Of a stretch of DNA of 64,000 bases, positions 8,140 to 57,564 are shown piece after piece. How positions within the stretch are numbered: the first letter of the stretch is position 1; the number at the start of each line of letters is the position of its first letter. This DNA is from Artemia franciscana (Eukaryota; Arthropoda; Branchiopoda; Anostraca; Artemiidae): the NCBI RefSeq assembly GCF_032884065.1, contig NC_088866.1, forward strand, positions 54,754,068-54,818,067. Direction: 5' to 3'. Position numbers and translations under genes: made by a program. A model generated the notes under the pieces. That model was not told the DNA's origin. It saw only the letters and a program-made list of their open reading frames with translations, and made no database searches.

Positions 8140-8440
8140 ATATTCAGTTTTTTTTTTTGTATTTTGTAAATGAGAAACAATTGAATGTATATTTATTTGT
8201 TTATGCATAGATGTGTGCATAAATTCTTTCTTTAAAACGACCTCATATTTTTTTTGTGGAAATCGATATCCTGAGATTTTCTGGCCTGAAAAACCTATCT
8301 AGATAGGATATAAGTTTGAGAACATTCGTTAAAAGCTTTATTTTTGGATACAAAATCATATGAGTAATGTCATATCTATGAGCACATTTCAAAGGCACAG
8401 ATGCGTCATTTACAGGGAGTGGCTCTCTGATTTTTAGTAT
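8140..8440. repeat. Dispersed repeat, left part (paralogue at 50.5-50.75 kb)
   Basis: This segment parallels 50515-50740. Both have 'TATTTATTT(G/A)T' then 'CATAGATG' or 'CATTTTTTC', a 'CCTCATATTTTTTT' or 'CTCCATATTTTTTCT' block, 'TATC(C/T)TG(A/G)GATT', 'ATCTAGATAGG', and 'TCGTTAAAAGC' or 'CCGTTAAGAGGC'. Family A copy 2 follows at once and may have split an older element whose other part resumes at 10140. Confidence 0.5.
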
Positions 8441-8444
8441 ATAT

Positions 8445-10139
8445 AAGGAGCGACATTAAAACTTAGAACGAACAGAAATTACTCCATCTATGAAAGGGGT
8501 TTTTCCTCCTCGACACCTCGCTCTTTACGCTAAAGTTTTTTATTGTTTTAAAAAAAAAAGTTGCAAGAAAGAATCAAACTTTAGCATTGACGGAGTTATT
8601 TCTCCGTCTATCATGGACGGAGTAATTTCTGTTCGTTTTAAGTTTTAATGTCGGTCCTTAATTTCATTTCAAAAAACTTGTTTTTTTTTATTTAATTTCT
8701 GAAAGTTTTTGAATTAATGCATGTCTGATTTTGGCTCTCCGTACATAAATTATTAAATGAAATTTAATAATTAATTAATTCTTTTTTTGGCTAAATGGCT
8801 TTCTCTTAGTTATGATCAGACGATTTTGAGAAATCAGGGGTGGGGAAGGAGGCCTAGTTGCCCTCTAATTTCTCGGTTACTTAAAAAGGCAACTAGATCT
8901 TTTAATTTTTAACGACCGTTTTTATTAGTAAAAAATGTACGTAACTTAAGAATTAACTTACGTAACAAACTTTTATATTCTTTTATTTTTGATTATATAT
9001 ATGAGGGGGTTGGTCCCCTCGTTAATACCTCGCTCTTCACACTAAATCTTGTTTTGTCCCAATTCTTTAAGAATGACCCCTGAATCAGAAAGGCCGTAGA
9101 ATAAATAGTTGAAATCGCTTAAAAATTTTTTAGCATAAAGAGTGAAGTATTTATCTCCTCCTAAATACCTCGCTCTTTATGCTAAAGTATTTTTCGAACC
9201 CCTCATATTCGTAATAATCTCTGTTCGTTTTAAGTTTTAATGCTTCTCCATACTTTCAATTGAAAAAAAACTTTTATATGTTTATATTTTCATCGTTTTT
9301 TTTTAATAGTAATGCAAGAAAATCCTGCGCCCTTTTCATTGAATTTCTCTTCCCCCATGAAATATTCCTCCAGGGAAAGATACTCCTATATAGCCCCCTC
9401 CCCAGAACCCCACACCCAAACCAAAAAAAAACCCTGACAACGTCGGTACACTTCCCAGTAACCATTACTGTATGTAAACATTGGTCAAAGTTTGTAACTT
9501 GCAGCCCCTCCCCCAGGGATTGTGGGGGGTAAGTCATCCGAAAAGACATAGTTATTATGGTTTTCGACTATGCGGAACAAAATGGCTATCTGAAAATTTT
9601 GATCCGTTGACTTTGGGAAAAAAATGAGCGTGGGAGGGGGCCTAGGTGCCCTCCAATTTTTTTGGTCACTTAAAAAGGGCACTAGAACTTTTCATTTCCG
9701 TTAGAATGAGCCCTCTTGCAGCACTCTAGGACCACTTGGTCGATACGATGACCCCTGGGGAAAAAAACAAACAAAAAAACAAATAAACACGCACCCGTGA
9801 TATGTCTTCTGGCAAAAAATACGAAATTCCACATTTTTGTAGATTGGATCTTGGAATTTTTTCTATAGGGTTCTCTGATACGCTGAATCCGATGGTGTCA
9901 TTTTCGTTAAGATCCTATGACTTTTAGGGGGTGTTACCCCCTATTTTTCAAAATAAGGCAAATTTTCTCAGGCTCGTAACTTTTGAGTTTTAATGCTTAT
10001 TTTATGCTTTATATTTAAAATCAGCATAAAAATCCGATTCTTTTGATATATCTTTAAGCATCGAAATTCCGTTTTTTAGAGTTTCGTTTACTATTGAGCC
10101 GGGTCGCTCCTTACAGTTCGTTACCACGAACTGTTTGAT
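8445..10139 (-). mobile_element. Family A copy 2, full body, outer stem truncated
   Basis: In reverse orientation: the long-hairpin end comes first (GGAGCGACATTAAAAC from 8447) and the small hairpin (GTTCGTTACCACGAAC) last at about 10116-10131. The outermost ~35 bp of the hairpin end are missing and the right arm is rearranged (a 'GACGGAG' duplication near 8590-8625). The stem is of the CTCGACACCTCGCTC type. A second internal inverted repeat (CTCGCTCTTTATGCTAAAG and its complement) lies near 9135-9190. There is no open frame with an ATG and protein-like content. The frames around 9274-9682 recur in other copies only because the DNA repeats. Confidence 0.9.
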
Positions 10140-16262: not shown

Positions 16263-17046
16263 TTTCCCCTAACTCTTTTTTATAATTCTTCAAAGGTCAG
16301 TAGTTTTTTGTATGAAATCTATAATTGGCATTTTGGAGTCTGTAGATTTTTTCGGCGGCTACCAGGTGCCACAAAAGTTCATGGTCAAAGTACATAACGA
16401 CGAAACCACACTGCCTTTCTATCATACAAAAAAGGAAAGAAGACAATGATGAGCTTGTGAGAACAGGGAATAACAAAGTCTTACAATCTATTCAGATATT
16501 TTGGCTATACACTCAACAGGCATCGTTTGCGAAATACAACATAAAACAAATTACTTAAAAAATTACATTAATAAAACAATTTTTTAACTAAAATCGTAAA
16601 ATAAATTTCTTTAAAAGAGTCCAGGCTTTCTCATCTTGCATAGGTGCAGCCAATACTGACAAAATAAAAGTTATTCATTAAAGCTACCTGGATTGATTAA
16701 AAATTCAAAAATTCTTTATTGTAATATTTGCTCTTTTCGCTGCTAATCTTCTATATCTTTTAGAAGCGGTTTTATTTTGACTGGCTCCTAATTTTATTAA
16801 ATTGTGCATACATGGTTGATTGTGGGCTCACCCAAGTCTCTATATAGGGATTGATTCGGATTATCAAAAATATGGTTGCTTAAAGCTGAATCAAAAGATG
16901 TTAAGCTATCGTTGGATTTTAATTCTTTTTTTTTCAACTATCTCTTTGTATATGCTGCTGTAAGCCATACGTATTTTTTCGAACACTACACTGCCTTTCT
17001 TTGACGAACAAATAAAAGTTCAACTAGAAGTAGGTCCATTTATTAG

Positions 17047-18666
17047 ATTAAATAAAAAACAAGTTTTTTTTAACGGAAAGTAAAGAGCGACATTAAAACT
17101 TAAAACGAACAGAAATTACTTCGTATATGAAAGGGGCTGCTTCCTTATCAACGCCCCACTCTTGATGCTAAAGTATGACTCTTTCTCTTAACTCTACTTT
17201 TTAAAACAGTAAAAAGTTTAGTGTAAAGAGCGGGGCGTTGATGAGGAAGCAGCCCCTTTCATATACGAAGTAATTTCTGTTCGTTTTAAGTTTTAATGTC
17301 GCTCCTTACTTTACGTTAAAAAAAACTTGTTTTTTTTATTTAATTACTGAACATTTTGTAAATCAATACATGTTTTTATTTTGGCTCTCCGCAGATAAAT
17401 AATTAAAACGAAATTTGCATATTTATTTTGTTGGCTAAATGGCTTTCTCATAGTTTTGATCGAATGATTTTGAGAAAAAAAAGAGCGGGGGAAGAGGCCT
17501 AGTTGCCCTCTGATTTTTTGGTTACTTAAAAAAGGCAACTAGAACTTTTAATTTTTTACGAATGTTTTATTAGTAAAACATATACGTAACTTACAAATTA
17601 GCTTACGTTATTAACTTCTGTATTCTCATGTTTTATTATGTACACGAAGGAGTTTACCCCCTCGTCAGTACCTCGCTCTTTACACTAAAGCTTAAATTTT
17701 GTCCCAATTTCTTAAGAATGACCCCTGCATCACAAAAGCCGTAGAATAAATAGTTGGAATTACTAAAAATACTTTAGCGGAAAGAGCGAGGTATTAGGAG
17801 GAGGTGAGCCCATCATATGCGTAATAATTTCTGTTCGTTTTAAGTTTTAATGCTTCTCCTTACTTTCAGTTGAAAAATTTCTTTTATTTATTTTTCAATG
17901 TTTTTTTTTTAAATAATGCTACGAAATCCTGCGCTCCCTTCATGAAAATTTTCTTCCCCCCTGACAAGTTCCTCCAAGGAAAGTTCCCCCAACATATCCC
18001 CCTCTTATCAAACCCCCCCCCACCACCTGAAAATCCCCCTGAAAACGTCTGTACACTTCCAAATGACTATTACTATATGTAAGCACTGGTCAAAGTTTGC
18101 AACTTGTGGCCCCTCCTACGGGGACTGTCGGGGAGTAAGTCATCCCAAAAGACATAGTTATAACGTTTTCAGACTACGCTGAATAAAATGGCTATCTCAG
18201 AATTTTGATTTGGTGACTTTGGGAAAATGATTAACGTTGGAGGGGGCCTTAGTGCCCTCCAATTTTTTAGTCACTTAGAAAGAGCTTTAGAGCTTTAGAG
18301 CTTTAGACACGCATCCGTGATCTGCCTTCTGGCAAAAAATACAAAATTCCACATTTTTGTAGATAACAGCTTGAAACTTCTACAGTAGGGTTCTCTGGTA
18401 CGCTGAATCTAATGGTGTGATTTTCGTTAAAATTCTGTGACTTTTACGGGTTGTTTCCCCCCATTTTCTAAAATAAGGCAAATTTTCTCAGGTTCGTAAC
18501 TTTTGATGGGTAAGATTAAACTTGATTAAACTTATATATTTAAAATCAGCATTAAAATGCGATTCTTTTTATGTAGCTATTGATATCAAAATTCCATTTT
18601 TTAGAGTTTTGGTTACTATTGAGCCGGGTCGCTCCTTACTACAGCTCGTTACCACGAACTGTTTGA
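17047..18666 (-). mobile_element. Family A copy 3, near-complete
   Basis: It starts with ATTAAATAAAAAAC and the long hairpin (17047 to about 17345; stem GAAAGGGGCTGC paired with GCAGCCCCTTTC). The internal CTCGCTCTTTACACTAAAG inverted repeat is near 17673-17800, and the small hairpin end is at about 18641-18666. The AAAGGGGC stem variant is present in both arms. About 100 bp are missing near 18300, where GAGCTTTAG is repeated in place of the usual GAGCCCTCTTGC block. No transposase frame. Confidence 0.92.
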
Positions 18667-19911
18667 CAACGAAACAGATGCAAAGAATTCAGAATATTTT
18701 GAAGGCTCACATTAGTGATTATCATCAGAAAATAAACCAAAATATTAAAATTAAACAAACTATATTTATACAGAATAAAGTAATTACTTTCTGATCAGAG
18801 CTAATTCCCGGCTCACTGGCTTAGAGGGTTCATTTTCAGGGCTCATTCAAAGTCTTTAGTTCCTTAATATTGCCTAAATGTACGTTGAATTTTCAATGAA
18901 AGTTGCACAAACTTCTTCGTTCGATTGCAAACAAAATATCGCTGAGTTTACAGTTATACACTTGATTGGTATATCATCCCCATTTATACGAATTAGATAT
19001 TTTTTCGAAGATCGTACTGCCTTTCTATGACAAACAAATAAAAGTTTAAGGAAAGATAAGTCCCCTTGTTCCACAGTGAAAGACAGATATAAACAATTCT
19101 GGATATTTCGACCACTTACATTAGTGATCATCATTTTTGAAAGAGATAAACATTATTTACACGCTGTTTGGAAAAAAGAAATAAATTCCACAAGTCATCT
19201 ACAAAGATGTTTTTCTATTATGGATATTGCTCAATTCTTTCTTTTTTTAATAGAAGGCTGTCTTGGATTTAAAGGAATCTTTCAAATTAAGTTCTTTTTA
19301 CCCGAAAGCAAATGCAAGAAAAAAAAAAGAAATCTCACAGTATAATATTTATTATCAGAATTAGTCAAACAAATATCTAAGGCATAAAAAGTGTTAAAAA
19401 CAATGCTTTTATATAGATAGAAATGGTCCTGAGAATATGAAAATTGCCTTATAAGAATTGTCTATCCTTGTGGGTTAAAAGTCTTACGCATAGCCAGCCT
19501 CAATTTAAGTTCATTATTGTTTTGATTCTTACTATTAATGCCACTAAATTAAAGAACAAACTTGCTAATCATGCGATAAATTTCTTCAATTTGTAGGATA
19601 ACAACTGATTCTAAAACCGATTTTAGTCCCCTTTTCATTATTCATCAAACGAAATATTTTCTTCAAACAGATAGATTTAGTTTACCTAAAATTTTCAGAA
19701 GCCACCACCAAAGATGTTTTTCTAATCAACAATTCAACTTTATTTTCAAGGAAACTATTTAAATTCCTTCCGAAGAAAGATGACTGTCATGAATGATAAC
19801 GAATCTTCTAAGGAAGCTATAGTGCATCCGAAAGAAGGCAAAAAACAAAAACATTACGAAACTGAACCAGATAAATATTGAATGGTTATGTTTCTATCGG
19901 CCTTTAAAAGT
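18667..19911. other. No gene recognised; contains a 65-bp paralogous segment
   Basis: About 18999-19063 (TATTTTTTCGAA, then CTGCCTTTCT, then AACAAATAAAAGTT, then AGTCC) is similar to 16972-17038, just left of family A copy 3. Apart from that I see only AT-rich DNA. Confidence 0.45.
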
Positions 19912-20212
19912 ATTAAATAAAAAAAAAACAAGTTTTTTCAACTGAAAGTAAGGAGTGACATCAAAACTTAAAACGCACAGAAATTACTTCGTATATGAAA
20001 GAGGCTGCTTCCTCATCAACGCCCCGCTCTTTACGCTAAAGTTTGACTCTTTCTCTCAATTCTTCTTTCTAAAACAGTAAAAAACTTTAGCGTAAAGAGC
20101 GGGGCGTTGATGAGGAAGCAGCCTCTTTCATATACGAAGTAATTTCTGTGCGTTTTAAGTTTTGATGTCACTCCTTACTTTCAGTTGAAAAAACTTGTTT
20201 TTTTTATTTAAT
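19912..20212. repeat. Long terminal hairpin of family A copy 4 (perfect 119-bp arms)
   Basis: Bases 19926-20044 and 20082-20200 are exact reverse complements over 119 bp, separated by a 37-nt loop. The pairing continues outward through A/T tracts to ATTAAATA and TATTTAAT with only a length difference. Differences from the family consensus (GAGTGACATC for GAGCGACATT, and CGCACAG for CGAACAG) are present in complementary form in both arms. Confidence 0.95.
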
Positions 20213-21632
20213 TTCTGAACGTTTTTGAATCAATGCATGTTTTTGATTTTGGCTCTCCGCAGAGGAATAATCAAAACGAAATTTGCATATTTTTTTTTTT
20301 TTTTGGCTCAATGGCTTTCTCATAATTTTGATCGAATGATTTTGAGAAAAAAAGAGCGGGGGACGAAGCCTAGTTGCCCCCCGATTTTTTGGTTAATTAA
20401 AAAGGCAACTAGAACTTTTAATTTTTTACGAATCTTTTTATTGGTAAAAGATTTACGTAACTTATAAATTAGCTTACGTAAAGAACTTTTGTATTCTCAT
20501 GTATTTATTACATATATGAGGGGATTCGCCCCATCGTCAGTACCTCGCTCTTTACACTAAAGCTTAAATTTTATCCCAATTCATTAAGAATGACCCCCTG
20601 AATCACAAAAGCCGTAGAATAAGTAGTTGAAATTACCGAAAATACTTTAGCGTAAAGAGCGAGGTATTAGAAGGAGGTGAGCCCCTCATATGGGTAATAA
20701 TTTCTGTTTGTTTTAAGTTTTATTGCTGTTCCTTACTTCCAGCTGAAAAAGCTTTTTCACTTTTATTTTTTAATTGCTTTTTTTTAAATAATGCTAGTAA
20801 ATCCTGCTCTCCCTTCATGGAAATTTTCTTCTCCCATTACAAATTATCGATGGAAAGTTCCCCCAGCATATCCCCCTCTTCTCAACTCCTCCCCCAAACC
20901 AAAAAAATCCTCCTGAAAACGCCTGTATACTTCCCAATAACCATTACTATATGTAAGCACAGGTCAAAGTTTGTAACTTGTTGCTCCTCCCACGGGGACT
21001 GTGGGGGAGTAACTCTTCCCCAAAGACATAGTTATAAGGTTTTTTGACTACGCTGAATAAAATGGCTATCTCAGAATTTTGATCCGTTGACTTTGGGAAA
21101 ATAATTAGCGTGGGAGGGGGCCTAGGTGCCCTCCAATTTTTTTGGTCACTTAAAAAGGGCACTAGAACTTTTCATTTCCATTAGAATGAGCCCTCTTGCA
21201 ACATTCTAGGACAACTGGGTCGATACGATCACCCCTGGGAAAAAAAACAAAAAAAAACAAAAAAACAAATAAACACGCATCCGTGATCTGCCTTCTGGCA
21301 AAAAATGCAAAATTCCACATTTTTGTAGATAGGAGCTCGAAACTTCTACAGTAGGGTTCTCTGATACGCTGAATCTGATGGTGTGATTTTCGTTAAGATT
21401 CTATGACTTTTAGGGGGCGTTTCCCCCTATTTTCTAAAATAACGCAAATTTTCTTAGGCTCGTAACTTTTGATGGGTAAGACTAAACTTGATGAAACTTA
21501 TATATTTAAAACCAGCATAAAAATGCGATTCTTTTGATGTAGCTATTGGTATCAAAATTCCATTTTTTAGAGTTTTGGTCACTATTGAGCCGGGTCGCTC
21601 CTTACTACAATTCGTTACCACGAACTGTTTGA
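19912..21632 (-). mobile_element. Family A copy 4, complete (1.72 kb)
   Basis: This is the best-preserved copy. The long terminal hairpin is at 19912-20212. The first half-unit follows, with the module near 20300-20430 (AACTAGAAC, GCCTAGTTGCCC). The internal inverted repeat is at about 20540-20680, and the second half-unit (GGCCTAGGTGCCCTCC near 21120) comes next. The small hairpin end (GTTCGTTACCACGAAC) is at about 21609-21624. The two half-units resemble each other, so the element probably grew by internal duplication. It is unlike any autonomous transposon: no ATG-initiated frame exceeds about 80 codons. Confidence 0.95.
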
Positions 21633-21703
21633 TTAATTCAAAGGTGAATTTTAGCTGTGAAAATTAAAGACGGGATAGAGAGCTTAAATCAAGCCGAAAC
21701 CGA

Positions 21704-22690: not shown

Positions 22691-22691
22691 A

Positions 22692-24981: not shown

Positions 24982-26520
24982 AAAAGAGCGGGGCGTTGAT
25001 GAGGAAGCAGCCCTTTCATATACGAAGTAATTTCTGTTCGTTTTAAGTTTTAATGTCGCTCCTTACTTTCCGTTAAAAAAAACTTGTTTTTTTTACTTAA
25101 TTTCTGAACGTTTTTGAATCAATGCATGTCTTGATTTTTGGCTCTCCGCAGATGAATAATTAAAACGAAATTTGCATTTTTTTTTTTTTTTGCTAAATGG
25201 CTTTCTCATAGTTTTGATCGAATGATTTTGGGAAAAAAGGAGCTGGGGAGGAGGCCTAGTTGCCCTCCAATTATTGGTTACATAAAAAGGCAACTAGAAC
25301 TTTTAATTTTTTTACGAATGTTTTTATTAGTAAAAGATATACGTAACTTACAAATTAGCTTACGTAGCGAAATTCTGTATTCTCATGTTTTTATTACGTA
25401 TACGAAGGGGTTCGCCTCCTCGTCAGAACCTCGCTCTTTACACTAAAGCTTAAATTTTGTTCCAATTTCTTAAGAATGACCCCTAAATCACAAAAGCCGT
25501 AGAATAAATAGTTGAAATTACTAAAATACTTTAGCTTTAAAAAGAGCGAGGTATTAGGAGATGGTGAGCCCTTCATATGCGTAATAATTTCTGTTCGTTT
25601 TAAATATTAATGCTTCTCCTTACTTTCAGTTGAAAAGACTTTTTCATATTTATTTTTTCATTGTATTTTTTGAAAAATGCTAGATAATCCTGCACTCCCT
25701 TCATGAAAATGTTCTTCCCCCATGACAAGTTCCTCCAAGGAAAGTTCCCCAACATATCCCCCTCTTCTCAACCCCCCCCCAGCCTAAAAACCTCCCCGAA
25801 AACGTCTGTACACTTCCAAATAGCCATTACTTTATATAAGCACTGTTCAAAGTTTGTAACTTGTGGCCCCTCCCACGTGGAATTTGGGGGAGTAAGTCGT
25901 CCCCAAAGACATAATTATAAGGTTTTTTGACTACGCTGATTAAAATGGTTATCTCAGAATTTCGACCTGGTGACTTTGGGAAAATAATTAGCGTGGGAAG
26001 GGGCCTAGGTGCCCTCCAATTTTTTTGTTCACTTAAAAAAGGCACTAGAACTTTTCATTTCCGTTAGAATGAGCCCTCTTGCAAGATTCTAGGACCACTG
26101 GGTCGATACAATCACCCCTGGGGTAAAAAAAGCAAAAAAAGAGAAAAACAAACAAATAAACACGCATTCGTGACCTGCCTTCTGGCAAAAAATACAAAAT
26201 TCCACATTTTTGTAGATAGGAGCTTGAAACTTCTACAATAGGGTTCTCTGATACGCTGAATCTGACGATGTGATTTTCGTTAAGATTTTATGAATTTTAG
26301 GGGGTTGTTTTCCCTTATTTTCTAAAATAAGGCAAATTTTCTCAGATTCGTAACTTTTGATGGGAAGACTAAACTTGATTAAACTTATATATTTAAAATC
26401 AGCATTAAAATACGATTCTTTTGAAGTAGCTATTGATATCAAAATTCCATTTTTTAGAGTTTTGGTAACTATTGAGCCGGGTCGCTCCTTACTACAGTTC
26501 GTTACCACAAACTGTTTGAT
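24982..26520 (-). mobile_element. Family A copy 6, lacking one hairpin arm
   Basis: It starts inside the long hairpin, at the beginning of the inner (right) arm (AAAAGAGCGGGGCG). The outer arm and loop are absent. The remainder is complete through the small hairpin end at 26498-26520. The break lies almost exactly at the hairpin tip, as expected if the palindrome was cleaved or lost during replication. The stem is of the GATGAGGAAGCAGCC subtype. Confidence 0.9.
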
Positions 26521-31470: not shown

Positions 31471-31545
31471 CCAGAAATATTCAGATTTAATGAAGCTTAC
31501 ATCATTAAAAATCAATTTTTTTTTATAAATATTATTGTTGAACGG

Positions 31546-32055: not shown

Positions 32056-32289
32056 TACACTGATTAGACAGTGTTTTGTTTAAAAATTAGTAAAAATAAT
32101 AAGTTTCCTTTGTTTTAAACTAGCCTCTCGTCAGCTTTTCTAACTTTTGATACATCAAAGATCCCTTATCAACCAAACAACCTTAAAGAATGTTATTATT
32201 TTCACAGGCTCTTGCTCTGATAGTTTCAAGGCATATCATTTCCATCTGTGATATTAAAGAGTGGATTTCCTTCTTATGTTTATATTACA

Positions 32290-34040
32290 TAAAAAAACTA
32301 GTTTTTTTAACTGAAAGTAAGGAGCGACATTAAAACTTAAAACGAACAGAAATTACTCCGTGTATGAAATGGGGTGTCCCCTCCGCAATCCCTCGCTCTT
32401 TACGCTAAAGCTTTTAATTGTTTTAAGAAGCAGAATTGTGGCAAAGAGTCAAACTTTAGCGTAAAGAGCGAGGTATTGCGGAGGGGAAAACCCATTTCAT
32501 ATACGGAGTAATTTCTGTTCGTTTTAAGTTTTAATGTCGCTCCTTACTTTCAGTTAAAAAAATTAGTTGTTTTTTTTTATGTAATTTCTGAACGTTTTTT
32601 GAATTAATGCATGTTTTATTTTGGCTCTCCATACATAAATTATTAAAATGAAATTTGCATATTAATTCCTTTTTTGGCTAAATGGCTTTCTCTTAGTTTT
32701 CAGACGATTTTGAGAAATAAGGGATGGGAAAGGAGGCCTAGTTGCCATGCAATTTTTCGGTTACATAAAAAGGCAACTATAAATTTTAATTTTTAACGAT
32801 TTTTTTTTTATTAGTAAAAAACATACGTAACTTAAAAATTAACTTACGTAACAAACTTTTGTATTCTTTAATTTTTATTTTGTATATGAGGGGGTTTGTA
32901 CCCTCGTTAATACCTCGTTCTTTACACTAAATCGTAAGTTTTGTCCCAATTCTTTAAGAATGGCCCCTGAATCAGAAAGGCCGTAGAATAAATAGTTGAA
33001 ATTACTAAAAATACTATAGCATAAAGAGCGAGGTATTTATCTCCTCCTAAATACCTCGCTCTTTATGCTAAAGTTTTTTTAGAACCCCTCATATGCGTAA
33101 TAATCTCTGTTCGTTTTAAGTTTCAATGCTACTCTTTACTTTCAAATGATAAAACTTATCCCTGTTTATTTTTTATTTTTTTTTATAGTAATTTTAGAAA
33201 ATCCTGCGCCCTTTTCATTGAATTTCTGTTCCCCCATGACATATTTCTCCAAGGAAAAAACCTCCCACATAGCCCCCTCCCCTCAACCCCACCCCCAAAA
33301 CCAAAAAAAAATCCCCTGAAAACGACTGTACACTTCCCAATAACCATTATTATATGTAAACACTGGTCGAAGTTTGTAACTTGCAGCCCCTCCCTCAGGG
33401 ACTGTGGGGGAGTAAGTCATTCCCAAAGACATAGTTATTATGTTTTTTGACTATGCAGAACGAAATGGCTATCTCAAAATTTTGATCTGTTGACTTTGGA
33501 GAAAAATTAGCGTGGGAGGGGGCCTAGGTGCCCTCCAATTTTTTTGGTCACTTAAAAAGGGCACTAGAACTTTTCATTTCCGTTAGAATGAGCCCTCTTG
33601 CGACATTCTAGGACCACTTGGTCGATACGATGACCCCTGGGGAAAAGAAAAAAAAACAAAAAAACAAACAAACAAATAAACACGCACCCGTGATTTGTCT
33701 TCTGGCAAAAAATACGAAATTCCATATTTTTGAAGATAGGAGCTTGAGAATTTTGATATAGGGTTCTCTGATACGCCGAATGCGATGGTGTGATTTTCGT
33801 TAAGAGTCTGTGACCTTTAGGGGGTGTTTTCCCCTATTTTCTAAAATAAGGCAAATTTTTTCAGGCTCGTAACTTTTGATGGCAAAGACTAAATTTGATG
33901 AAACTTATATATTTAAAATCAGCATGAAAATCTGATTATTTTGATGTATATTTTAGCATCAAAATTCCGTTTTTTAGAGTTTCGTTTACTATTGAGCCGG
34001 GTCGCTCCTTACTACAGTTCGTTACCACGAACTGTTTGAT
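32290..34040 (-). mobile_element. Family A copy 7, complete (1.75 kb)
   Basis: The long hairpin is at about 32290-32585, with stem GAAATGGGGTGTCCCCTCCGC and its complement GCGGAGGGGAAAACCCATTTC. This is a different subtype from copies 3, 4, 6, 8, 9 and 10 yet pairs almost completely with itself. Internal inverted repeats of CTCGCTCTTTA are near 32920-33070. The small hairpin end is at 34018-34033. No coding frame. Confidence 0.95.
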
Positions 34041-35163
34041 ATACTAAGGAATATTATTTGTTGGAAAGTCAAACCAAATGCTTCAGTTTCTTGGACATGA
34101 TTTCTTTTTTATTTTCCCTGTTTTTTTTATTTAATTCTTTTTTGCACCTTTTTGAGAGAAAATTATTGTATTTTGAAAGGTAATCAAAATTACCTCTTTT
34201 TATTCAATCCCTCTCTTATCCTTAAATTACAATAGGGAGAAGACTGTGCTAAAAATTTGAACAATTGATTTAACCCTAAAAGAATCCAAAGTGGAACTGA
34301 ATCTCTTATCAGATTGTTTCTAAGAAATAAATAAGATTCCGCTAAGGTTCCTATAAGGGAAATATTTTCCAGCAATTATTCCTCGTATTTTCCACTCATT
34401 AACTAAACATCAGAACGAATGGAACAGAAAATCACAATTACATTTTGTCACCTTTAGCAAAATTCTAGCTGCAAAAAAAAAGAAAGAAAAAAAGGAAAAC
34501 AACTCATACAGTATCAAAATTCTGTAGCCAAAAATAGAAAATTAACTTTTTTACAAGACAGCTAACCAATTCTTTTTATCCCGTCACTTGCATCGCTTCA
34601 CTAAGCAGCCCTGGTGTTGAGTCTTCTGCATAGCATTGCAATAATGGTAGCTCCATTTTTATTTTGCTAAACAAAATTGTAGGTTTCTAGCTTAAAAGTG
34701 TTTAGTGGCTTGATAAGCACAAGTTTCTCAGTGTAAAAAAACACACTTTGCATATTCAATCCTTTTTCTACTTCAAACATAGTCTAGGTTTTTAATCCTG
34801 TTTGACCTACAGTATCAATAAAAATTCGCCCTAAAAAGTTTGTTTTTACTCAGCGTCTTATTTGCTTGAAATAATAAGCAAAAAAAAATAGTTTTCAGAT
34901 AGAAGAAAAAAATCAAAGTTGAGACTTAAAAAAGAAATACTGTCTTTCTATGTAAGTTCATTAAAAAAACAAAAAAAAACAAACAAACTAAAACCAACTG
35001 AAGATAGTTCTCGATAATTTTTAGATTATTCAAAACCAGTGGTTTACTGAAAACATCCATTCCATGCATGAAAACAACAATATTGTATTTGTTTTTTTTA
35101 AGCCAAAAGGGCATTATCTAAACTGAAGAAAATAACAGATTAGTCTAAACAGTAATTATTTAA
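34041..35163. other. No recognisable gene
   Basis: AT-rich DNA between an oppositely oriented pair of family A copies whose small-hairpin ends face each other. Nothing else was recognised. Confidence 0.45.
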
Positions 35164-36879
35164 TCAGACAGTTCGTGGTAACGAACTGTAATTAAGGAGC
35201 GACCCGGCTCAATAGTAACCAAAACTCTAAAAAATGAAATTTTGACACCAATACCTACATCAAAAGAATCGCAATTTAATGCTAATTTTAAATATATAAG
35301 TTTCATCAAGTTTAGTCTTACCCATCAAAAGTTACGAGCCTGAGAAAATTTGCGTTATTTTAGAAAATAGGGGGATACGCCCCCTAGAAGTCATAGAATC
35401 TTAACGAAAATCACACAAGCAGATTCAGCGTATCATAGACCCCTAATATAGAAGTTTCAAGCTCCTATCTGCAAAAATGTGGAATTTTGTATTTTTTGTC
35501 AGAAGAAAGATCACGGATGCGTGTTTATTTGTTTTTTTGTTGTTGTTTTTTTCCCCAGGGGTGATCGTATCAACCCAGTTGTCCTAGAATGTTGCAAGAG
35601 GGCTCATTCTAACGGAAATGAAAAGTTCTAGTGCCCTTTTTAAATGACCAAAAAAATTGGAGGGCACCTAGGCCCCCTCCCACGCTAATTATTTTACCAA
35701 AGTCAACGGATCAAAATTCTGAGATAGCCATTTTATTCAACGTTGTCGAAAAACTTTATAACTATGTCTTTGGGGACGACTTACTCCCCCACAGTCCCCA
35801 TGGGAGGGGCAACATGTTAAAAACTTTGACCAATGCTTGCATATAGTAATGGTTATTGGGAAGTGTACAGGCGTTTTCAGGAGGATTGTTTTGGTTGGGG
35901 GAGGGGTTGAGAAGAGGGGGATATGCTGGGGGAACTTTCCATCGATAATTTGTCATGGGGGAAGAAAATCTCCATGAAGGGAGCGCAGGATTTACTAGCA
36001 TTATTGGAAAAAAAAAACAATGAAAAAATAAATATGAAAAAGCTCTTTCAGCTGGAAGTAAGGAACAGCATTAAAACTTAAAACAAACAGAAATTATTAC
36101 CCATTTGAGGGGCTCACCTCCTCCTAATACCTCGCTCTTTACGCTAAAGTATTTTTAGTAATTTCAACTATTTATTCTACGGCTTTTGTGATTCTGGGGT
36201 CATTCTTAATGAATTGGGACAAAATTTAAGCTTTAGTGTAAAGAGCGAGGATCTGACAAGGGGGCGAACCTCCTCATATATGTAATACAAATATGAGAAT
36301 ACAAAAGTTCTTTACGTAAGCTAATTTATAAGTTACGTAAATCTTTTACTAATTAAAATATTCGTAAAAAATTAAAAGTTCTAGTTGCCTTTTTAATTAA
36401 CCAAAAAATCGGAGGGCAACTAGGCTTCCTCTCCCACTCTTTTTTTTCTCAAAATCATTCGATCAAAATTATGAGAAAGCCATTTAGCAAAAAAAAAAAA
36501 ATACAAATTTCGTTTTAATTATTCCTCTGCTGAGAGCCAAAATCAAAACATGCATTGTTTCAAAAACGTTCAGAAATTAAATAAAAAAAAACAAGTTTTT
36601 TTTAACTGAAAGTAAGGAGCGACATTAAAACTTAAAACGAACAGAAATTACTTCGTATAGGAGGAGGCTGCTTCCTCATCAACGCCCCGCTCTTTACGCT
36701 AAAGTTTTTTACTGTTTTAAAAAGGAGAATTGAGAGACAGAGTCAAACTTTAGCGTAAAGAGCGGGGCGTTGATGAGGAAGCAGCCTCTTTCATATACGA
36801 AGTAATTTCTGTTCGTTTTAAGTTTTAATGTCGCTCCTTACTTTCAGTTAAAAAAAAACTTGTTTTTTTTTTATTTGAT
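35164..36879 (+). mobile_element. Family A copy 8, complete (1.72 kb)
   Basis: The small hairpin is near 35169-35188. Half-unit 2 module (GGAGGGCACCTAGGCCCCCTCC) is near 35658 and half-unit 1 module (GGAGGGCAACTAGGC) near 36411. The internal inverted repeat is at about 36127-36250. The long hairpin is at 36576-36879 (stem GAGGCTGCTTCCTCATCAACG). A frame beginning with GTG (not ATG) at 35631 is shared with other copies. Confidence 0.95.
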
Positions 36880-38060
36880 ATCCATTTAAGATCAAAAGCA
36901 AGCAAATCATTATACTTGGCTCACTTGCAAATGTCATACCAAATCAGAAAATTCAAGCCATGTATAAATATAAAAAATACTCACTTTGCACCGTTGAAAC
37001 ATATTAAAGCAAACTATGATTCACCTGCGCAATAATATTTATAGCCCAAAGGTGTCATTTTGACTAGATTTAAGAAATGAACAACCCATTGGTTGAACAA
37101 CTGTCTTCTTTTGACCAATTAAATTTGAGGGAAATGTGAAGGATGTCTACTGTTTGCACTCTGGTTTTCTTTCTAGAGAACCCTTGTTCCGCCATACATG
37201 GCGAGCTTCTACAGAAACGTTTCCTATTTGCACCACGAACGGGATTCTTCACGCCAAACGTATCTTATGACACCGGTGTACACAATTTTTGAATGGTACC
37301 CCTTCAGTGAAATCTTAAACTCCAATATAGACTTACACCTTTCACAGAAAAATTAGTATTATACTTTAATAAAATCCTGGAAAGTAAGCTTAAAGGATTG
37401 GCTTTAGGTATCTAAAAAAAAACATAAGACTACAGCAAGAGAATTTGACCACTTACTTCCAAATAAAAGTAGTATTTTAAACGAAAAAAATTATATATCC
37501 TTTGCTTTCCACAACAAAAAGAAAAAGTCTGCAGCTATTTCAGAGACAAGATAATTATAATATTTATATTATAGTTATAATTTATTATAAATTATTAATT
37601 ATAATTTATATTACATTATAATATTTATGTATATTTTTCCTTTTTTTTTAAACTATAGTCAACAAATCTTCTCTAAGATTGGTATTGGGTCAATTTTCCT
37701 TCTTTTTTCACGCAGTGAAAAAAGAAGGAAATTTCACTAAGCCCTGCTTTTAACATATAACCATTTCATTAATTGAAAAAAAGTTAATCAGTATAATAAA
37801 ATGAAAACGTGCTTCAAATTAGTTATCTTACTTCAGCTTAATAATAAATGTGATGCTGGGTATCTGATTTAATTCTTTATAATTTTCGATCCCAGAGCGC
37901 TTTCTGAGTGCTTAAACATCAGTTTTTAACGTGTGGAATTTTAAAGGACAATCCATTTATATAACGCTGATTAAGATCTTTTACTATTGTGTATGTTTCC
38001 GTGCCTCAGATGAGACTGAGTTAAGGGAAACTGCTTGAGTCGTCCTTTCTTAATCTAATT
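36880..38060. other. No recognisable gene; AT-rich, one strong hairpin
   Basis: AT-rich intergenic or intronic DNA including a TTATAATTTATTA-type stretch at 37556-37630 and the hairpin at 37695-37731. The minus-strand frame at 37070-37252 is Arg/Lys-rich but unrecognised. Confidence 0.45.
37695..37731. repeat. Perfect 17-bp inverted repeat, 3-nt loop
   Basis: TTTCCTTCTTTTTTCAC, loop GCA, then the exact complement. One arm is pyrimidine-only apart from its last three bases. It is not flanked by an obvious gene, so no regulatory role can be assigned. Confidence 0.85.
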
Positions 38061-38250: not shown

Positions 38251-38949
38251 GTGAGGAGGCTTGAATGGAATATATTGTAAATTATGAAAACTTGAATTGA
38301 TTTAAAAACCGCTTTCTGTACGAAATCAGGTTTAAGTCTAAAATTGCGATTGTTGAAAAGGAAGTATGTTAAAAAAAACAGTTCTTAACTATATAATATG
38401 CAAAGTAATTGTAATAAATACATTTTGATTGTATATCCACTATGCTTACCACCCCCCCCCCCATAATGTGTAAATATATATCCCAAATTGTATATTTCCC
38501 GTGTGTTTTTCCGATTCTTGATTTCGTCTCATTTGATATTAATTTACGGGTACAAGGGTTGAAACAAAAGTAATGAATAGCTAAATGCATGGCAAACATA
38601 ATTTGGGCTATATATCTGCACATTTGGTGAGTAGGGGTTGTGGGTAAAGTATAGTGGAGATGCGGTCAAAATGTGTTAACTACGATTCTTCTGCATCCTA
38701 TGAGGTAAGAACTGTTTTATTAACATGTTTCTTACTTAACATCACCAATTCAACACTAATGCCTAAGCTTTATCAAGGTGAATGAAATTTACTAGGATCA
38801 GCACAAATATCAAGTCGTAAGGTTTCACTTGGCTAAATTAGCTCTTTAAAAATGTTAATGAAAGCTTGTTTGAAAAGCACCAGTTTACCTTATACTGTTT
38901 TCTCAGACAAATCGACTGATATACAATGACTTAGGAGTATTTGCGTAAA
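38251..38949. other. No recognisable gene
   Basis: AT-rich, with a C-run (about 38451-38461). No supportable exon or element. Confidence 0.4.
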
Positions 38950-40666
38950 TCAAACAGTTCGTGGTAACGAACTGTAGTAAGGAGTGACCCGGCTCAATAG
39001 TAACCAAAACTCTAAAAAATGGAATTTTGATACCAATAGCTGCATCAAAAGAATTGCATTTTAATGCTGGTTTTAAATATATAAGTTTCATCAAGTTTAG
39101 TCTTACCCATCAAAAGTTACGAGCCTGAGAAAATTTGCGCTATTTTAGAAAATAGGGGGAAACACCCCCTAAAAGTCATGGAATCTTAACGAAAATCTCA
39201 CCATCAGATTCAGCGTATCAGAGAACCCTACTGTAGAAGTTTCGACCTCCTATCTACAAAAATGTGGAATTTTGCATTTTTTGCCACAAGGCAGATCACG
39301 GATGCGTGTTTATTTGTTTTTTTGTTTTTTTTTCCCAGGGGTGATCGTATCGACCCAGTTGTCCTAGAGTGTTGCAAGAGGGCTCATTCTAACGGAAATA
39401 AAAAGTTCTAGTGCCCTTTTTAAGTGACCAAAAAAATTGGAGGGCACCTAGGCCCCCTCCCACACTAATTATTTTCCCAAAGTCAACGGACCAAAATTCT
39501 GAGATAGCCATTTTATTCAATGTAGTCGAAAAACCTTATAACTATGTCTTTGGGGACGAATTACTCCCCCACAGTCCCCTTGGGAGGGGCAACAAGTTAC
39601 AAACTTTGACCTGTGCTTACATATAGTAATGGTTATTGGGAAGTATACAGGCGTTTTTAGGAGGATTTTTTTTTGGTTGGGGAGAGGGATTGAGAAGAGA
39701 GGGATATACTGGGGGAACTTTCCGTCGAGAATTTGTCATGGGAGAAGAAAATTTCCATGAAGGGAGAGCAGGATTTACTAGCATTATTTAAAAAAAAAAA
39801 AATTAAAAAATAAATGTGAAAAAGCTTTTTCAGCTGGAAGTAAGGTACAGCAATAAAACTTAAAACAAACAGAAATTATTACCCATATGAGGGGCTCACC
39901 TCCTTCTAATACCTCGCTCTTTACGCTAAAGTATTTTTAGTAACTTCAACTATTTATTCTACGGCTTTTGTGATTCAGGGGTCATTCTTAATGAACTAGG
40001 ATAAAATTTAAGCTTTAGTGTAAAGAGCGAGGTACTGACGATGGGGCGAATCCCCTCATATATGTAATAAGAACATGAGAATACAAAAGTTCTTTACGTA
40101 AGCTAATTTATAAGTTACGTAAATCTTTTACCAATAAAAATATTCGTAAAAAATTAAAAGTTCTAGTTGCTTTTTTAATTAACCAAAAAATCGGAGGGCA
40201 ACTAGGCTTCGTCCCCCGCTCTTTTTTTCTCAAAATCATTCGATCAAAATTACGAGAAAGCTATTTAGCAAAAAAAAAAAAAAAAAAAATATGCAAATTT
40301 CGTTTTGATTGTTCCTCTGCGGAGAGCCAAAATCAAAACATGCATTGATTCAAAAACGTTCAGAAATTAAATATAAAAAAACAAGTTTTTTTTAACTGGA
40401 AGTAAGGAGCGACATTAAAACTTAAAACGCACAGAAATTACTTCGTATATGAAAGAGGCTGCTACCGCATCAACGCCCCGCTCTTTACGCTAAAATTTTT
40501 TACTGTTTTAAAAAGAAGAATTGAGAGAAAGAGTCAAACTTTAGCGCAAAAAACGGGGTGTTGATGAGGTAGCAGCCTCTTTCATATACGAAGTAATTTC
40601 TGTGCGTTTTAAGTTTTAATGTCGCTCCTTACTTCCAGTTAAAAAAACTTGTTTTTTTTATTTAAT
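38950..40666 (+). mobile_element. Family A copy 9, complete (1.72 kb)
   Basis: TCAAACAGTTCGTGGTAACG opens the element. The long hairpin is at 40366-40666. Three private variants (CTGGAAG, CGCACAG, GCTACC) occur in both arms as complementary changes, while some loop-proximal positions no longer match. The remainder is closely similar to copies 4, 8 and 10. Confidence 0.95.
40366..40666. repeat. Long terminal hairpin of family A copy 9
   Basis: Arms of about 130 bp around a ~40-nt loop. Left-arm CTGGAAGTAAGG pairs with right-arm CCTTACTTCCAG, CGCACAG with CTGTGCG, and GGCTGCTACC with GGTAGCAGCC. In most other copies these positions read CTGAAAG, CGAACAG and GCTTCC. Mismatches occur near the loop (GCATCAACGCC against GGTGTTGATGA). 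Confidence 0.93.
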
Positions 40667-41444
40667 AAAGAGTAGAGCCTAACCCAGCAGCGCGAGTTTA
40701 AACTAAACCAAAAGTAAAAATATATCTAACTTTCGCAAGTCCCCGCATCCTGACAAAGATTAGTCTTCAAAAGAATTGATTTTTCTTTGTGTAATTGATT
40801 CTTAGGAATTACTTCTGCCAGGTTAAATTTATTTGCAGTATAGGGGATCTGGCACTTTAATAAAAGTCTAGCCCTTTCTGATTAAAATAGAGGACGATGA
40901 AGCTTCTAGAAATGAACATTGAAAGAACAAAATGGGAACCACGGCGCCCTATCGCGGGAATAATTTTTGGGTACTGAATATCAAAAAACCAATATCAAAG
41001 GAGTATTGTAAATAAATGCAACAGATCTACCTTGCTGCCCGTTGTTGGAATAACTGAAATATAAATAAGAAAACAATCAAATAGCAATTTAAAGCTAGTA
41101 TACAATATAACTACCTTGTATGTAATACATATAAGGTAATTAGTACATAATAGTCTATAATTGGCTTATAATTGGCTCATAATTGTGTTTATAGGAGTTG
41201 CATTGCTTAAGATAAAAAAAAATCAGGGTCAGGTGAGATGTAAAGTCAGGTCAGATCAGCCTCCAATACCAAAAGCCGCTATTACGGCCTGTCAATTATT
41301 TTTGTATTTACTATAATGCTAAAAAAGAAACATAAAAAGAGCAAATATAACAAACAAGCAAAAAATCGATCAAAAGATAGGTGGACACGAACACAAAGGC
41401 AAATGTGCAAACTATCATAGGCAAAGCAACAGCCCTGTGTAAGT
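40667..41444. other. No recognisable gene
   Basis: AT-rich spacer between two family A copies whose long-hairpin ends face each other. Confidence 0.45.
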
Positions 41445-43158
41445 ATTAAATAAAAAAAACAAGTTTTTTTTAACTGAAAGTAAGGAGCGACATTAAAACT
41501 TAAAACAAACAGAAATTACTTCGTATATGAAAGAGGCTGCTTCCTCATCAACGCCCCGCTCTTTACGCTAAAGTTTGACTCTGTCTCTCAATTCTTCTTT
41601 TTAAAACAGTAAAAACTTTAGCGTAAAGAGCGGGGCGTTGATGAGGAAGCAGCCTCTTTCATATACGAAGTAATTTCTGTTCGTTTTAAGTTTTAATGTC
41701 GCTCCTTACTTTCAGCTAAAAAAACTTGTTTTTTTTTTATTTAATTTCTGAATGTTTTTGAATCAATGCATGTTTTGATATTGGCTCTCCGCAGAGGAAT
41801 AATTAAAACGAAATTTGCATTTTTCTTTTTTTTTGGCTAAATGGCCTTCTCATAATTTTGATCGAATGATTTTGAGAAAAAAAGAGCGGGGGAGGAAGTC
41901 TAGTTGCCCTCCGATTTTTTGGTCAATTAAAAAGGCAACTAGAACTTTTAATTTTTTACGAATATTTTTATTAGTAAAAGATTTACGTAACTTATAAATT
42001 AGCTTACGTAAAGAACTTTTGTATTCTCATATTTTTATTACATATATGAGAGGGTTCGCCCCCTTGTCAGATCCCCGCTCTTTACACTAAAGCTTAAATT
42101 TTGTCCCAATTCATTAAGAATGACCCCAGAATCACAAAAGCCGTAGAATAAATAGTTGAAATTACTAAAAATACTTTAACGTAAAGAGCGAGGTATTAGG
42201 AGGAGGTGAGCCCCTCAAATGGGTAATAATTTCTGTTTGTGTTAAGTTTTAATGCTGTTCCATACTTCCAGCTGAAAGAACTTTTTCATATTTATTTTTT
42301 CATTGTGCTTTTAAATAATGCTAGTAAATCCTGCGCTCCCTTCATGGAGATTTTCTTCCCCCATGACAAATTATCGATGGAAAGTTCCCCCAGCATATCC
42401 CTCTCTTCTCAACCCCACCCCCAACCTAAAAAATCATCCTGAAAACGCCTGTACACTTCCCAATAACCATTACTATATGTAAGCATTGGTCAAAGTTTGT
42501 AACTTGTTGCCCCTCCCATGGGGACTGTGGGGGAGTAATTCGTCCCCAAAGACATTGTTATAAAGTTTTTCGACTACGTTGAATAAAATGGCTATCTCAG
42601 AATTTTGATCCGTTGAATTTAGTAAAATAATTAGCGTGGGAGGGGGCCTAGGTGCCCTCCAATTTTTTTGGTTACTTAAAAAGGGCACTAGAACTTTTCA
42701 TTTCCGTTAGAATGAGCCCTCTTGCAACATTCTAGGACAACTGGGTCGATACGATCACCCCTGGGAAAAAAAACAAAAAAAAAACAAAAAACAAATAAAC
42801 ACGCATCCGTGATCTGCCTTCTGGCAAAAAATACAAAATTCCACATTTTTGTAGATAGGAGCTTGAAATTTCTACAGTAGGGTTCTCTGATACGCTGAAT
42901 CTGATGGTGTGATTTTCGTTAAGATTCTATGACTTCTAGGGGGCGTTTCCCCCTATTTTCCAAAATAACGCAAATTTTCTCAGGCTCGTAACTTTTGATG
43001 GGTAAGACTAAACTTGATGAAACTTATATATTTAAAATCAGCATTAAAATGCTATTCTTTTGATGTAGGTATTGGTATCAAAATGCCATTTGTTAGAGTT
43101 TTGGTTACTATTGAGCTGGGTCGCTCCTTACTACAGTTCGTTACCACGAACTGTTTGA
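41445..43158 (-). mobile_element. Family A copy 10, complete (1.71 kb)
   Basis: The long hairpin is at 41445-41745 (subtype GAGGCTGCTTCCTCATC). One arm reads ACAAACAG while its partner reads CTGTTCGT, so at this site the arms disagree. The small hairpin end is at about 43134-43158. Opposite orientation to copy 9. Confidence 0.95.
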
Positions 43159-43547: not shown

Positions 43548-44557
43548 AAGAGCTAAGAGATCATATGGCCCTTGTGACGAGGCCGGAAGAGCCAAGAGCT
43601 CATATGGTATGAGCTCTAGCAAAATTCTAAAAATCAATAGAATGATTTAAAAGGAAAATCAGAGGCTTTATGCCGATCGGGATTTAAAACAAGAGCTCTG
43701 AGTCACGAGGTCCTTCTAAATATCAAAATTCATTAAGATCCGATCACCAGTTCGTAAGTTATAAATATCTCATTTTTTCTAATTTTTCCTCTCCCTTCAG
43801 CCCCCCAGATGGTCGAATCAGGGAAAACGACTATATCAAGTCAATCTGTGCAGCTCCCTAGCACGCCTACCAATTTTCATCGTCCTAGCACGTCCAGAAG
43901 CACCAAACTCGTCAAAGCACTGGACTCCACCCCTAAATCCCCCAAAGAGAACAAATCTAGTACGGTTACATCAATCACGTATCTACGACATTTGCTTATT
44001 CTACCCACCAAGCTTCATCCTGATTCCTCCACTCTAAGTATTTTCCAAGATTTCTAATTTCCCCCTCCAACTCCCCCCAATGTCAACAGATCTGGTCAGG
44101 ATTTGAAATAAGAGCTCTGAGACATGATTTCCTTCTAAATACCAAATTTTATTAAGACCCGGTCACCTTTTCCTAAGTTAAAAATAACTCAATTTTTCTG
44201 ATGTTTCCAAATTAACACCCCCCAGCTCCTCCAAAGAGAACGGATCCGTTCCAGTTATGTCAATCACGTATCTAGAATTTGTGCTTATTCTTCCCATCAA
44301 GTTTCATCCCGATCTCTTCACTTCCCCTATGTCCCCGGATCAAATTCGAGTCGAAAATGGAGCATCTGAGACCTAAGATCCTTCTATATATCAAGTTTCA
44401 TTAAGATCCGATCACCTATTCGTAAGATAAAGATAACCCAATTTTCACGTTTTCCAAGAATTCCGGGTTCCTCCTACAACTCCCTCCCCAATGTCAGTGG
44501 ATCTGGTCGGAATTTAAAATAAGAGCTCTGAAGCACAAGTTCCTTCTAAATATAAAA

Positions 44558-46217
44558 TCAAGCAGTTCGTGGTAACGAACTGTAGTAAGGAGCGACCCGG
44601 CTCAATAGTAAACGAAACTCTAAAAAACGGAATTTTGATCCTAAAAGATACATCAAAAGAATCGAATTTTCATGCTGATTTTAAATCTATAAGTTTCATC
44701 AAATTTAGTCTCTGTCGTCAAAAGTTACGAGCCTGAGAAAATTTGCCTCATTTTGGAAAATAGGGTGAAACACCCACTAAAAGTCATAGAATCTTAACGA
44801 AATCACGGGTGCGTGTTTATTTGTTTGTTTGTTTGTTTTTTTTCTTTTCCCCAGGGGTCATCGTATCGACCAAGTGGTCCTAGAATGTCGCAAGAGGGCT
44901 CATTCTAACAGAAATGGAAAGTTCTAATGCCCTTTTTAAGTGACCAAAAAAATTGGAGGGCACCTAGGCCCCCTCCCACGCTCATTTTTTACCCAAAGTC
45001 AACGGATCAAAATTTTGAGATAGCCATTTTGTTCCGCATAGTCGAAAACCATAATAACTATGTCTTTGGGAATGACTTTACCCCACAATCCCCAAGGGAG
45101 GGGCTGCAAGTTACAAATTTTGACCAGTGTTTACATACAGTAATAGTTATTGGGAAGTTTACAGACGTTTTCAGGGGGATTTTTTTGGTTTGGGGGTGGG
45201 GTTGAGGGGAGGGGCCATGTGGAAGGATCTTTCCTTGGAGGAATATGTCATGGGGGAAGAAAAATTCAATGAAGAAAAAATTAAAAAAAAAGGGCGCAGG
45301 ATTTTCTAGCATTACTATAAAAAAATAATGAAAAAATAAGCATGAACACGTTTTTTCAATTGAAAGTAAGGAGTAGCACTGAAACTTAAAACGAACAGAG
45401 ATTATTACGCATTTGAGGTGTTCTAAAAATACTTTAGTATAAAGAGCGTAGTATTTAGGAGGAGATAAATACCTCGCTCTTCATGCTAAAGCATTTTTAG
45501 TAATTTCAATTATTTATTCTACGGCCTTTCTGATTCAGGGGTCATTCTTAAAGAATTGGGACAAAACTTACGATTTAGTGTAAAGAGCGAGGTATTAACG
45601 AGGGTACAAACCCCCTCGTATACATAATAAAAATATAAGAATATAAAAGTTTGTTACGTAAGTTAATTCTTAAGTTACGTATATTTTTTACAAATAAAAA
45701 CGTTCGTTAAAAATTAAAAGTTCTAGTTGCCTTTTTAAGTAACCGAAAAATTGGAGGACTACTAAGCCTCCTTCCCCACCCCTTATTTTTCAAAATCGTC
45801 TGATCAAAACTAAGAGAAAGCCATCTAGCCAAAAAAAGAATTAATATGCAAATTTCGTTTTTATAATTTATGCGCGGAGAGACAAAATCAAACATACATT
45901 AGTTCAAAAACGTTCAGAAATTAAATAAAAAAACTTGTTTTTTTTAACTGAAAGTAAGGAGCGACGTTAAAACTTAAAACGAACAGAAATTACTCCGTAT
46001 ATGAAATGGGTTGTCCCCTCCACAATCCCTCGCTCTTTACGCTAAAGCTTTTAATTGTTTTAAAAAGTAGAATTGTGGCAAAGAGTCAAACTTTAGCGTA
46101 AAGAGCGAGGGATTGCGGAGGGGACAACCCATTTCATATACGGAGTAATTTCTGTTCGTTTTAAGTTTTAACGTCGCTCCTTACTTTCAGTTAAAAAAAC
46201 AAGTTTTTTTTATTTAA
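44558..46217 (+). mobile_element. Family A copy 11, complete, nested in family B
   Basis: The element starts TCAAGCAGTTCGTGGTAACG. Its long hairpin is at 45920-46217 (stem GAAATGGGTTGTCCCCTCC). It interrupts a family B unit: left flank CTTCTAAATATAAAA, right flank TTTCATTAAGATC. The undisturbed unit at about 47140 reads ATAAAATTTCATTAA. About 110 bp of the usual body are missing near 44800 (GAATCTTAACGAAATCACGGG). Private arm variants (GACGTT/AACGTC, and CTTG/CAAG at the stem base) are shared by both arms. Confidence 0.95.
45920..46217. repeat. Long terminal hairpin of family A copy 11
   Basis: Arms of about 125-130 bp. The stem base reads AAACTTGTTTTTTTTAACTG on the left and CAGTTAAAAAAACAAG on the right. 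In other copies these are CAAG left and CTTG right, so the short word is inverted in both arms together. GCGACGTTAAAAC pairs with GTTTTAACGTCGC where the consensus is GACATT/AATGTC. One arm mismatch: CCACAATCCC against GGGATTGCGG. Confidence 0.93.
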
Positions 46218-57472: not shown

Positions 57473-57479
57473 TTGATAT

Positions 57480-57482
<3 letters not shown>

Positions 57483-57562
<80 letters not shown>
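57483..57562. repeat. (AT)n microsatellite
   Basis: About 80 bp of pure AT repeat between the RT relic and the left arm of the foldback element. Confidence 0.97.

Positions 57563-57564
<2 letters not shown>

Follow-up and report, generated by a model that had tools for sequence, protein, structure and literature searches.

Arms of inverted repeats that remain alike have been described in several settings. Quasipalindrome correction is template switching between the two arms of an inverted repeat (PMC8604942, PMC8794818), and the consulted sections of the yeast study report that such switching yields both arm homogenization and spacer inversion (PMC8604942). In Galileo/Foldback transposons, according to the consulted part of PMC3573991, the two repeats of one copy are 98 to 100% identical and closer to each other than to those of other copies. 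Arm homogenization, spacer inversion, and transposon arms that are closer within than between copies (Galileo) are therefore already in print separately, as far as the consulted parts of these sources go. A limited search of titles and abstracts retrieved no published match for the combination of arm homogenization and inversion with a rolling-circle transposon.

The element analyzed here lies in a 64,000-nucleotide stretch of the Artemia franciscana genome (the window), which has a GC content of 34.1%; the scaffolds of this species are given in the consulted part of PMC11492255 as about 34.7 to 34.9% GC, with Helitrons making up 8.81% of the genome. Like the quasipalindromes of the consulted sources, the element presents arm homogenization plus spacer inversion (4 of 35 copies). 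Unlike the entries of the yeast spacer-inversion table, where arms are about 10 to 16 bp (PMC8604942, part consulted), the arms here are 124 bp long and sit at the end of a transposon, and in further contrast with that case there are very many copies, with correction apparent mainly in source lineages. What is new is the scale, the placing of a palindrome of approximately 300 bp at the terminus, and the difference seen between source lineages and copies after insertion.

The palindrome is one end of an abundant mobile element

The hairpin of copy 4 does not stand by itself but forms the left end of a mobile element of about 1.7 kb that is very abundant (Table 1). The window has about nine copies, which lie in either orientation and are flanked on each side by unrelated DNA. 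A segmental array was considered as the source of the copies' common surroundings and rejected, because these surroundings are the body of the element itself. Across the 1.27-Gb assembly, the 42-base motif at the stem tip has 23,508 matches with at most three mismatches, of which each hairpin can contribute two. The end signature consists of AGTAAGGAGCGAC on the left and GTCGCTCCTTACTACAGTTCGTTACCACGAACTGTTTGA on the right, and the short hairpin of the right end reads CAGTTCGT-TACC-ACGAACTG in most aligned copies, with a one-base difference in copy 4.

Table 1. Coordinates in the window of the copy 4 element, its parts, and related copies
Feature	Position	Strand	Remarks
Left arm of copy 4 terminal hairpin	19921..20044	+	124 bp, 100% complementary to right arm
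Loop of copy 4 hairpin	20045..20081	+	37 nt, not in the reverse-complemented state
Right arm of copy 4 terminal hairpin	20082..20205	+	124 bp, pairs fully with left arm
Whole element, copy 4, about 1.72 kb	19911..21632	+	Self-alignment and alignment of ends
Left 13-bp subterminal inverted repeat, inside left arm	19947..19959	+	AGTAAGGAGTGAC in copy 4, AGTAAGGAGCGAC in most aligned copies
Right end	21594..21632	+	GTCGCTCCTTACT (partner of left subterminal repeat), short hairpin, TTTGA; 3'-end alignment
Internal solo arm-like sequence	20639..20768	+	76% identical; served as unpaired control
Related copy, loop inverted, left end shortened	8431..10139	+	Self-alignment, end alignment
Related copy (copy 3)	17041..18666	+	Self-alignment, end alignment
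Related copy without left arm	24983..26520	+	Self-alignment
Related copy, loop inverted	32283..34040	+	Self-alignment, loop reading
Related copy	35162..36880	-	Self-alignment
Related copy (copy 9)	38948..40667	-	Joint and single-arm marks in common with L006
Related copy	41444..43158	+	Self-alignment
Related copy (copy 11)	44556..46218	-	Inserted in a repeat; comparison with empty sites gives no target duplication

The element is apparently noncoding. The 137-amino-acid open frame of copy 4 matched no Pfam family, and in a Pfam search of 8 of the 19 open frames of at least 100 amino acids in the window, none inside the element passed the curated cutoff. One match exceeded it, an RVT_1 domain (E value of 1.9e-9) in a 251-amino-acid open frame outside the element (56927-57682, minus strand), near which AT microsatellites are found.

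Internal direct repeats at about 150 to 514 and 717 to 1267 of the element (right arm against solo arm, and 400 to 514 against 1150 to 1267) suggest growth by duplication of a part of itself. Beside copy 4, positions 21703-22692 hold a diverged relative of the element (about 65%) in inverted orientation, which aligns with 20579-21636. Positions 43679-47204 hold a repeat family with members about 250 to 420 bp apart, and the element at 44556-46218 sits in one of these repeats, so that usable empty sites are available. A tandem array with a period of about 90 bp, in which alternate units are the most alike (a higher-order repeat), occupies 30826-31558.

Likeness to rolling-circle transposons

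Judged from its sequence, the element resembles a nonautonomous Helentron (HINE), with a rolling-circle build; we claim likeness and not membership. It agrees with the HINE/DINE-1 description in the consulted part of PMC4067079 in having no recognized coding content and a high copy number, in its subterminal inverted repeats (12 to 15 bp in HINEs and 13 bp here, AGTAAGGAGCGAC on the left and GTCGCTCCTTACT on the right), and in its short 3' palindrome, CAGTTCGT-TACC-ACGAACTG, which is followed by TTTGA. The T-rich target without target site duplication that is described for HINEs was found at one insertion, 44556-46218, compared with seven paralogous empty sites. Two features depart from the same description. 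HINEs have the left subterminal repeat 2 to 4 nt from the 5' terminus, but here the distance is about 35 nt in copy 4 and much the same in those other aligned copies whose left end is complete; the copy at 8431, which begins near this repeat, looks shortened. The second is the approximately 300-bp palindrome at the left end of the element.

HINEs also share their ends with an autonomous Helentron that encodes Rep, helicase, and endonuclease (PMC4067079, part consulted), whereas inspection of one candidate locus linked no such partner to the element. A Helitron_like_N profile search of the genome, in which 150 of 7,436 candidates were scored, retrieved Helitron replication genes genome-wide (for example, at C4:41852049), many of them in open frames of 1,500 to 1,700 amino acids with nearly identical scores, suggesting that these genes were recently active. 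The link to the one autonomous Helitron that was inspected failed on the 3' ends, as the 3' end of the element is absent from the 3.5 kb downstream of it. Downstream of this Helitron lies a palindrome with CTAG at its end, which by eye resembles a canonical Helitron end, and a copy of the hairpin element lies upstream (L051:353-2077). In contrast to the canonical CTRR end of Helitrons, 14 of 16 two-ended copies terminate in TTTGA, one in TCTGA, and one in CTTGA, in a search that required a TGA end; and in contrast to canonical insertion between A and T, the target was a T run in one case. Galileo differs from the element in that its repeats occupy both ends, its transposase is P-element-like, and its target duplications are 7 bp long (PMC3573991, part consulted).

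Arms are closer within than between copies

An earlier reading of the window from its sequence alone (the sequence-only reading) had described the arms of copy 4 as identical over 119 bp; the identity is confirmed, with full complementarity, and the length is corrected to 124 bp. The changed sites it listed, GAGTGACATC and CGCACAG, are present in both arms of copy 4, and arm alignment likewise placed the sets it had named for copies 3, 9, and 11 in both arms. The AAAGGGGC of copy 3 is one of two common forms in the family, and besides its joint set, copy 9 carries several single-arm mismatches close to the loop. The stem base of copy 11 (45919-46221) reads CTTG in both arms, and CAAG in most copies. 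These are reverse complements of each other within an A-run/T-run, a tiny local palindrome that has seemingly been flipped in both arms.

The comparison among copies started from 49 hits, of which 14 were left out (repeat fetches of one copy; the diverged L049/L050, which are one copy twice; and L002, L015, and L017, with less than 75% identity). In the remaining 35 copies, many of them chosen by an exact 42-mer near the loop, left arms were aligned with reverse-complemented right arms over 105 columns. In the 63 outer stem columns, arms differ by 3.4% within copies and by 8.1% between copies, and none of 5,000 random re-pairings was as close, which excludes chance. The 12 copies that were not chosen by an arm motif gave 3.6% versus 10.4% (0 of 20,000 re-pairings as close), the seven two-armed copies of the window alone gave 3.6% versus 10.6% (9 of 20,000), and six copies of a single subfamily gave 2.1% versus 4.6% (a fraction of 0.0026). 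Left arms do not stand apart from right arms as a class, since their majority letters differ in 1 of the 105 columns, where there is a near tie. The proposal that arms are homogenized beyond what independent mutation would allow is borne out by these re-pairing tests and by the body-tree counts given below.

Joint changes that mark subfamilies

The changes that the sequence-only reading assigned to individual copies proved to be shared or recurrent. A 30-mer that includes two of the three sites of copy 4 (GAGTGACATC) has 2,032 matches in the genome. The 100 matches listed fall into 43 pairs, with one member on each strand and a spacing of about 205 bp, and 14 places without a partner; the last of the matches listed is among these 14. 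Both arms thus carry it in 43 of 57 copies among the matches listed, where an unpaired place may hide any difference within the 30 bases of the other arm; pairs in these and the following match listings were counted by eye and recounted. Because it is mostly paired among the matches listed, the 30-mer marks a subfamily, and the changes also occur in both arms of L028, L029, L045, and L048. The set of copy 9 is equally not its own, as L006 has the same set in both arms at an unrelated insertion site. For the GACGTT of copy 11, a 35-mer tested because it had been named beforehand has 338 matches, and the 100 listed resolve into 3 pairs (copy 11 included) and 94 single arms; this change is recurrent and elsewhere mostly confined to one arm (both arms in 3 of 97 copies among the matches listed).

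Column counts in 31 copies (four shortened or part-deleted copies dropped) show 47 single-arm and 4 both-arm alleles among those present in one copy only, and 57 single-arm versus 88 both-arm instances among those present in at least two copies. This predominance of paired states among common changes, together with the location of the subterminal repeats inside the arms, is what might be expected if pairing were under selection, with single-arm mutants of a source transposing poorly and compensating second mutations spreading. That account is weighed below against the rate and kind of the joint changes.

Three rare variants were selected by position and not for being joint. Both arms are changed in 3 of 97 carrier copies for the first (among the 100 matches listed of 140), in 1 of 93 for the second, which lies at the site of L031 on another background (among the matches listed), and in 1 of 99 for the third (among the 100 matches listed of 376), or in 5 of 289 overall among the matches listed. 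In our own sample, the site of the third variant has two single-arm changes and that of the first has none. For the first two variants, the 4 pairs seen compare with about 0.37 expected by independent mutation (Poisson P of about 6e-4), so that copy-private joint changes are rare, yet above chance. The expectation uses a parent count of 7,659, an exact partner in 38 of 100 arms among the matches listed, and allele counts of 72 T and 22 C, taken by eye; a recount of 73 T and 21 C leaves the result as it is. A private joint change is also seen in L031, whose 35-mer, picked for being joint, has 13 exact matches, namely, 11 single arms and one pair, which is L031. Two places, C3:37274746-37274797 and C3:37552759-37552810, have two rare variants in common, each in a single arm; either a local duplication or the copying of a mismatched stem may account for this.

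The excess of pairs and the private change of L031 are consistent with conversion in place, a process unconnected with transposition in which replication template switching or recombination would convert the arms of every inserted copy at a constant rate. Against this stands the contrast between rare variants, joint in 5 of 289 copies, and the subfamily marker, joint in 43 of 57, in both cases among the matches listed.

Joint changes on internal branches, single-arm changes at the tips

A tree of the element bodies was built with 28 tips, leaving out two copies whose body could hardly be aligned and five that were shortened or part-deleted. Internal branches carry 16 joint and 4 single-arm changes (plus 1 equalizing), and terminal branches carry 17 joint and 70 single-arm changes (plus 1 other double), a difference with a Fisher p of 6e-7. 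In the outer columns only, the counts are 7 joint and 1 single on internal branches and 10 and 28 on terminal branches (p = 0.002). The count of 17 joint changes on terminal branches is, if anything, too high, since poorly supported nodes separate copies that have some of these alleles in common. Relative to the body rate, joint changes on internal branches reach about 0.7 when all 105 columns are counted (16 events, 0.213 substitutions per site) and about 0.5 in the outer 63 (7 events). Double mutations that are rare and sifted by selection would not supply so many, and the joint changes include transversions that would require a mismatched intermediate.

Arm divergence increases with the length of the terminal branch (Spearman coefficient of 0.73, p = 1e-5, 28 copies), with a slope of 0.81 (95% interval of 0.68 to 0.99), where 2 corresponds to decay after insertion along the entire branch. 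Five of seven diverged regions contain a recognizable hairpin, and in four of these (L002, L050, L017, and L015) the longest arm match is 74 to 83% complementary. The fifth, L009, is diverged yet keeps arms that are 93% complementary, as conversion in place would allow. Since the changes on terminal branches are mostly single-arm and four of five diverged hairpins have decayed, conversion in place is unlikely to be the main process.

A first sign of constraint on the outer arms (30 private changes in 3,607 pooled outer sites, versus 57 in 3,367 sites of the whole solo arm) was dropped because the outer rate of the unpaired solo arm is also low, 0.0118, versus 0.0061 in left arms and 0.0106 in right arms.

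Loop inversion, mismatch position, and transmitted mismatches

Four of the 35 copies have a reverse-complemented loop; they belong to a single clade, which includes unflipped copies as well. Read backwards, the flipped copies restore the common loop, and in two of them the base at the loop edge has been carried along. Loop inversions of this kind could also arise by conversion in place. The same applies to L054, one of the rare-variant pairs, in which a perfect stretch of about 50 bp surrounds the joint changes and single-arm mismatches flank it on either side, as expected for a patchy conversion tract. In L053, another rare-variant pair, the outer stem is free of substitutions and three mismatches lie near the loop.

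In the 12 copies that were not selected by arm motif, mismatches crowd near the loop, at 0.092 in the last 21 columns versus 0.008 to 0.020 in the outer 63. The unpaired solo arm has a twofold position difference of the same kind, and local mutability thus explains some of the excess. The rise toward the loop, in part a matter of local mutability, is the opposite of what a simple snap-back starting at the loop would give.

Mismatched stems can pass through transposition, as copy 9 and L006, with unrelated flanks, have one left-only and one right-only difference in common. The copy at 32283-34040 and L014 share one left-only difference, and the two C3 places described above share two single-arm variants, possibly through local duplication. 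Common arm mismatches at separate insertions would be erased by a fresh copy of the arm and thus disfavor the self-primed or hairpin-intermediate copying put forward in the sequence-only reading, in which one arm is remade from the other at every transposition. The palindrome does extend to the terminus of the element, and several young copies have perfect or near-perfect stems, as such copying would predict, but with the shared differences of copy 9 and L006 in hand we regard it as scarcely probable.

Transmission of mismatched stems also speaks against selection for pairing. Pairing of an RNA finds no support, since wobble-type mismatches are about equally frequent for the two strands (34 versus 29). 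Taken with the rate of joint changes on internal branches and their transversions, these observations make selection very unlikely.

Source lineages and inserted copies

The reading that we favor, with a probability of about 0.68 on sequence evidence, is that active source lineages match their arms to each other by template switching or gene conversion, and that the arms of inserted copies then decay independently. As long as a lineage goes on transposing, a single-arm mutation would usually be erased or copied into the other arm, either through a template switch from arm to arm or through gene conversion within a folded hairpin or cruciform. Daughters would inherit matched arms, giving rise to whole subfamilies with matching changes in both arms, and after insertion a copy would mostly be left alone while its arms decay independently. 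Joint changes at the subfamily level, single-arm changes at the tips, some inherited mismatched stems, and loop inversion are seen directly. From these we infer a tie between correction and the transposition cycle (for example, through a single-stranded stage), the enzymes that would take part, and the reason why source lineages would correct more often than inserted copies.

Several observations weigh against this source-lineage reading. Internal branches yielded few counts, all from a single sample of 35 copies (28 in the tree), and the diverged L009 keeps arms that are 93% complementary. Alleles split at weak nodes and unsampled source history within terminal branches mean that the rates of source and inserted copies are not cleanly separated. 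Conversion or template switching, as the sequence-only reading had proposed among its options, remains the best account, while the idea that each copy shows a correction of its own finds no support, and remaking at each transposition is disfavored.

A more specific version places arm correction inside the transposition cycle, where a single-stranded rolling-circle intermediate would fold the terminal palindrome and mismatches would be repaired. We put this forward tentatively, as a possibility with odds well below even. If true, the genome-wide record of joint and single-arm changes would be a footprint of the single-stranded stage that separates source lineages from dead copies.

Co-variation of arms in a repeat family is by itself evidence neither of RNA structure nor of recent conversion in the copy under study. 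With so many copies in a single genome, the hairpin serves as a natural experiment on the upkeep of matching inverted repeats: each copy records whether a mutation remained in one arm or was carried over to the other, and whether the loop was flipped. Should correction prove to be linked to transposition, the folded single-stranded intermediate that has been proposed for rolling-circle transposons would gain support at the sequence level from these records.
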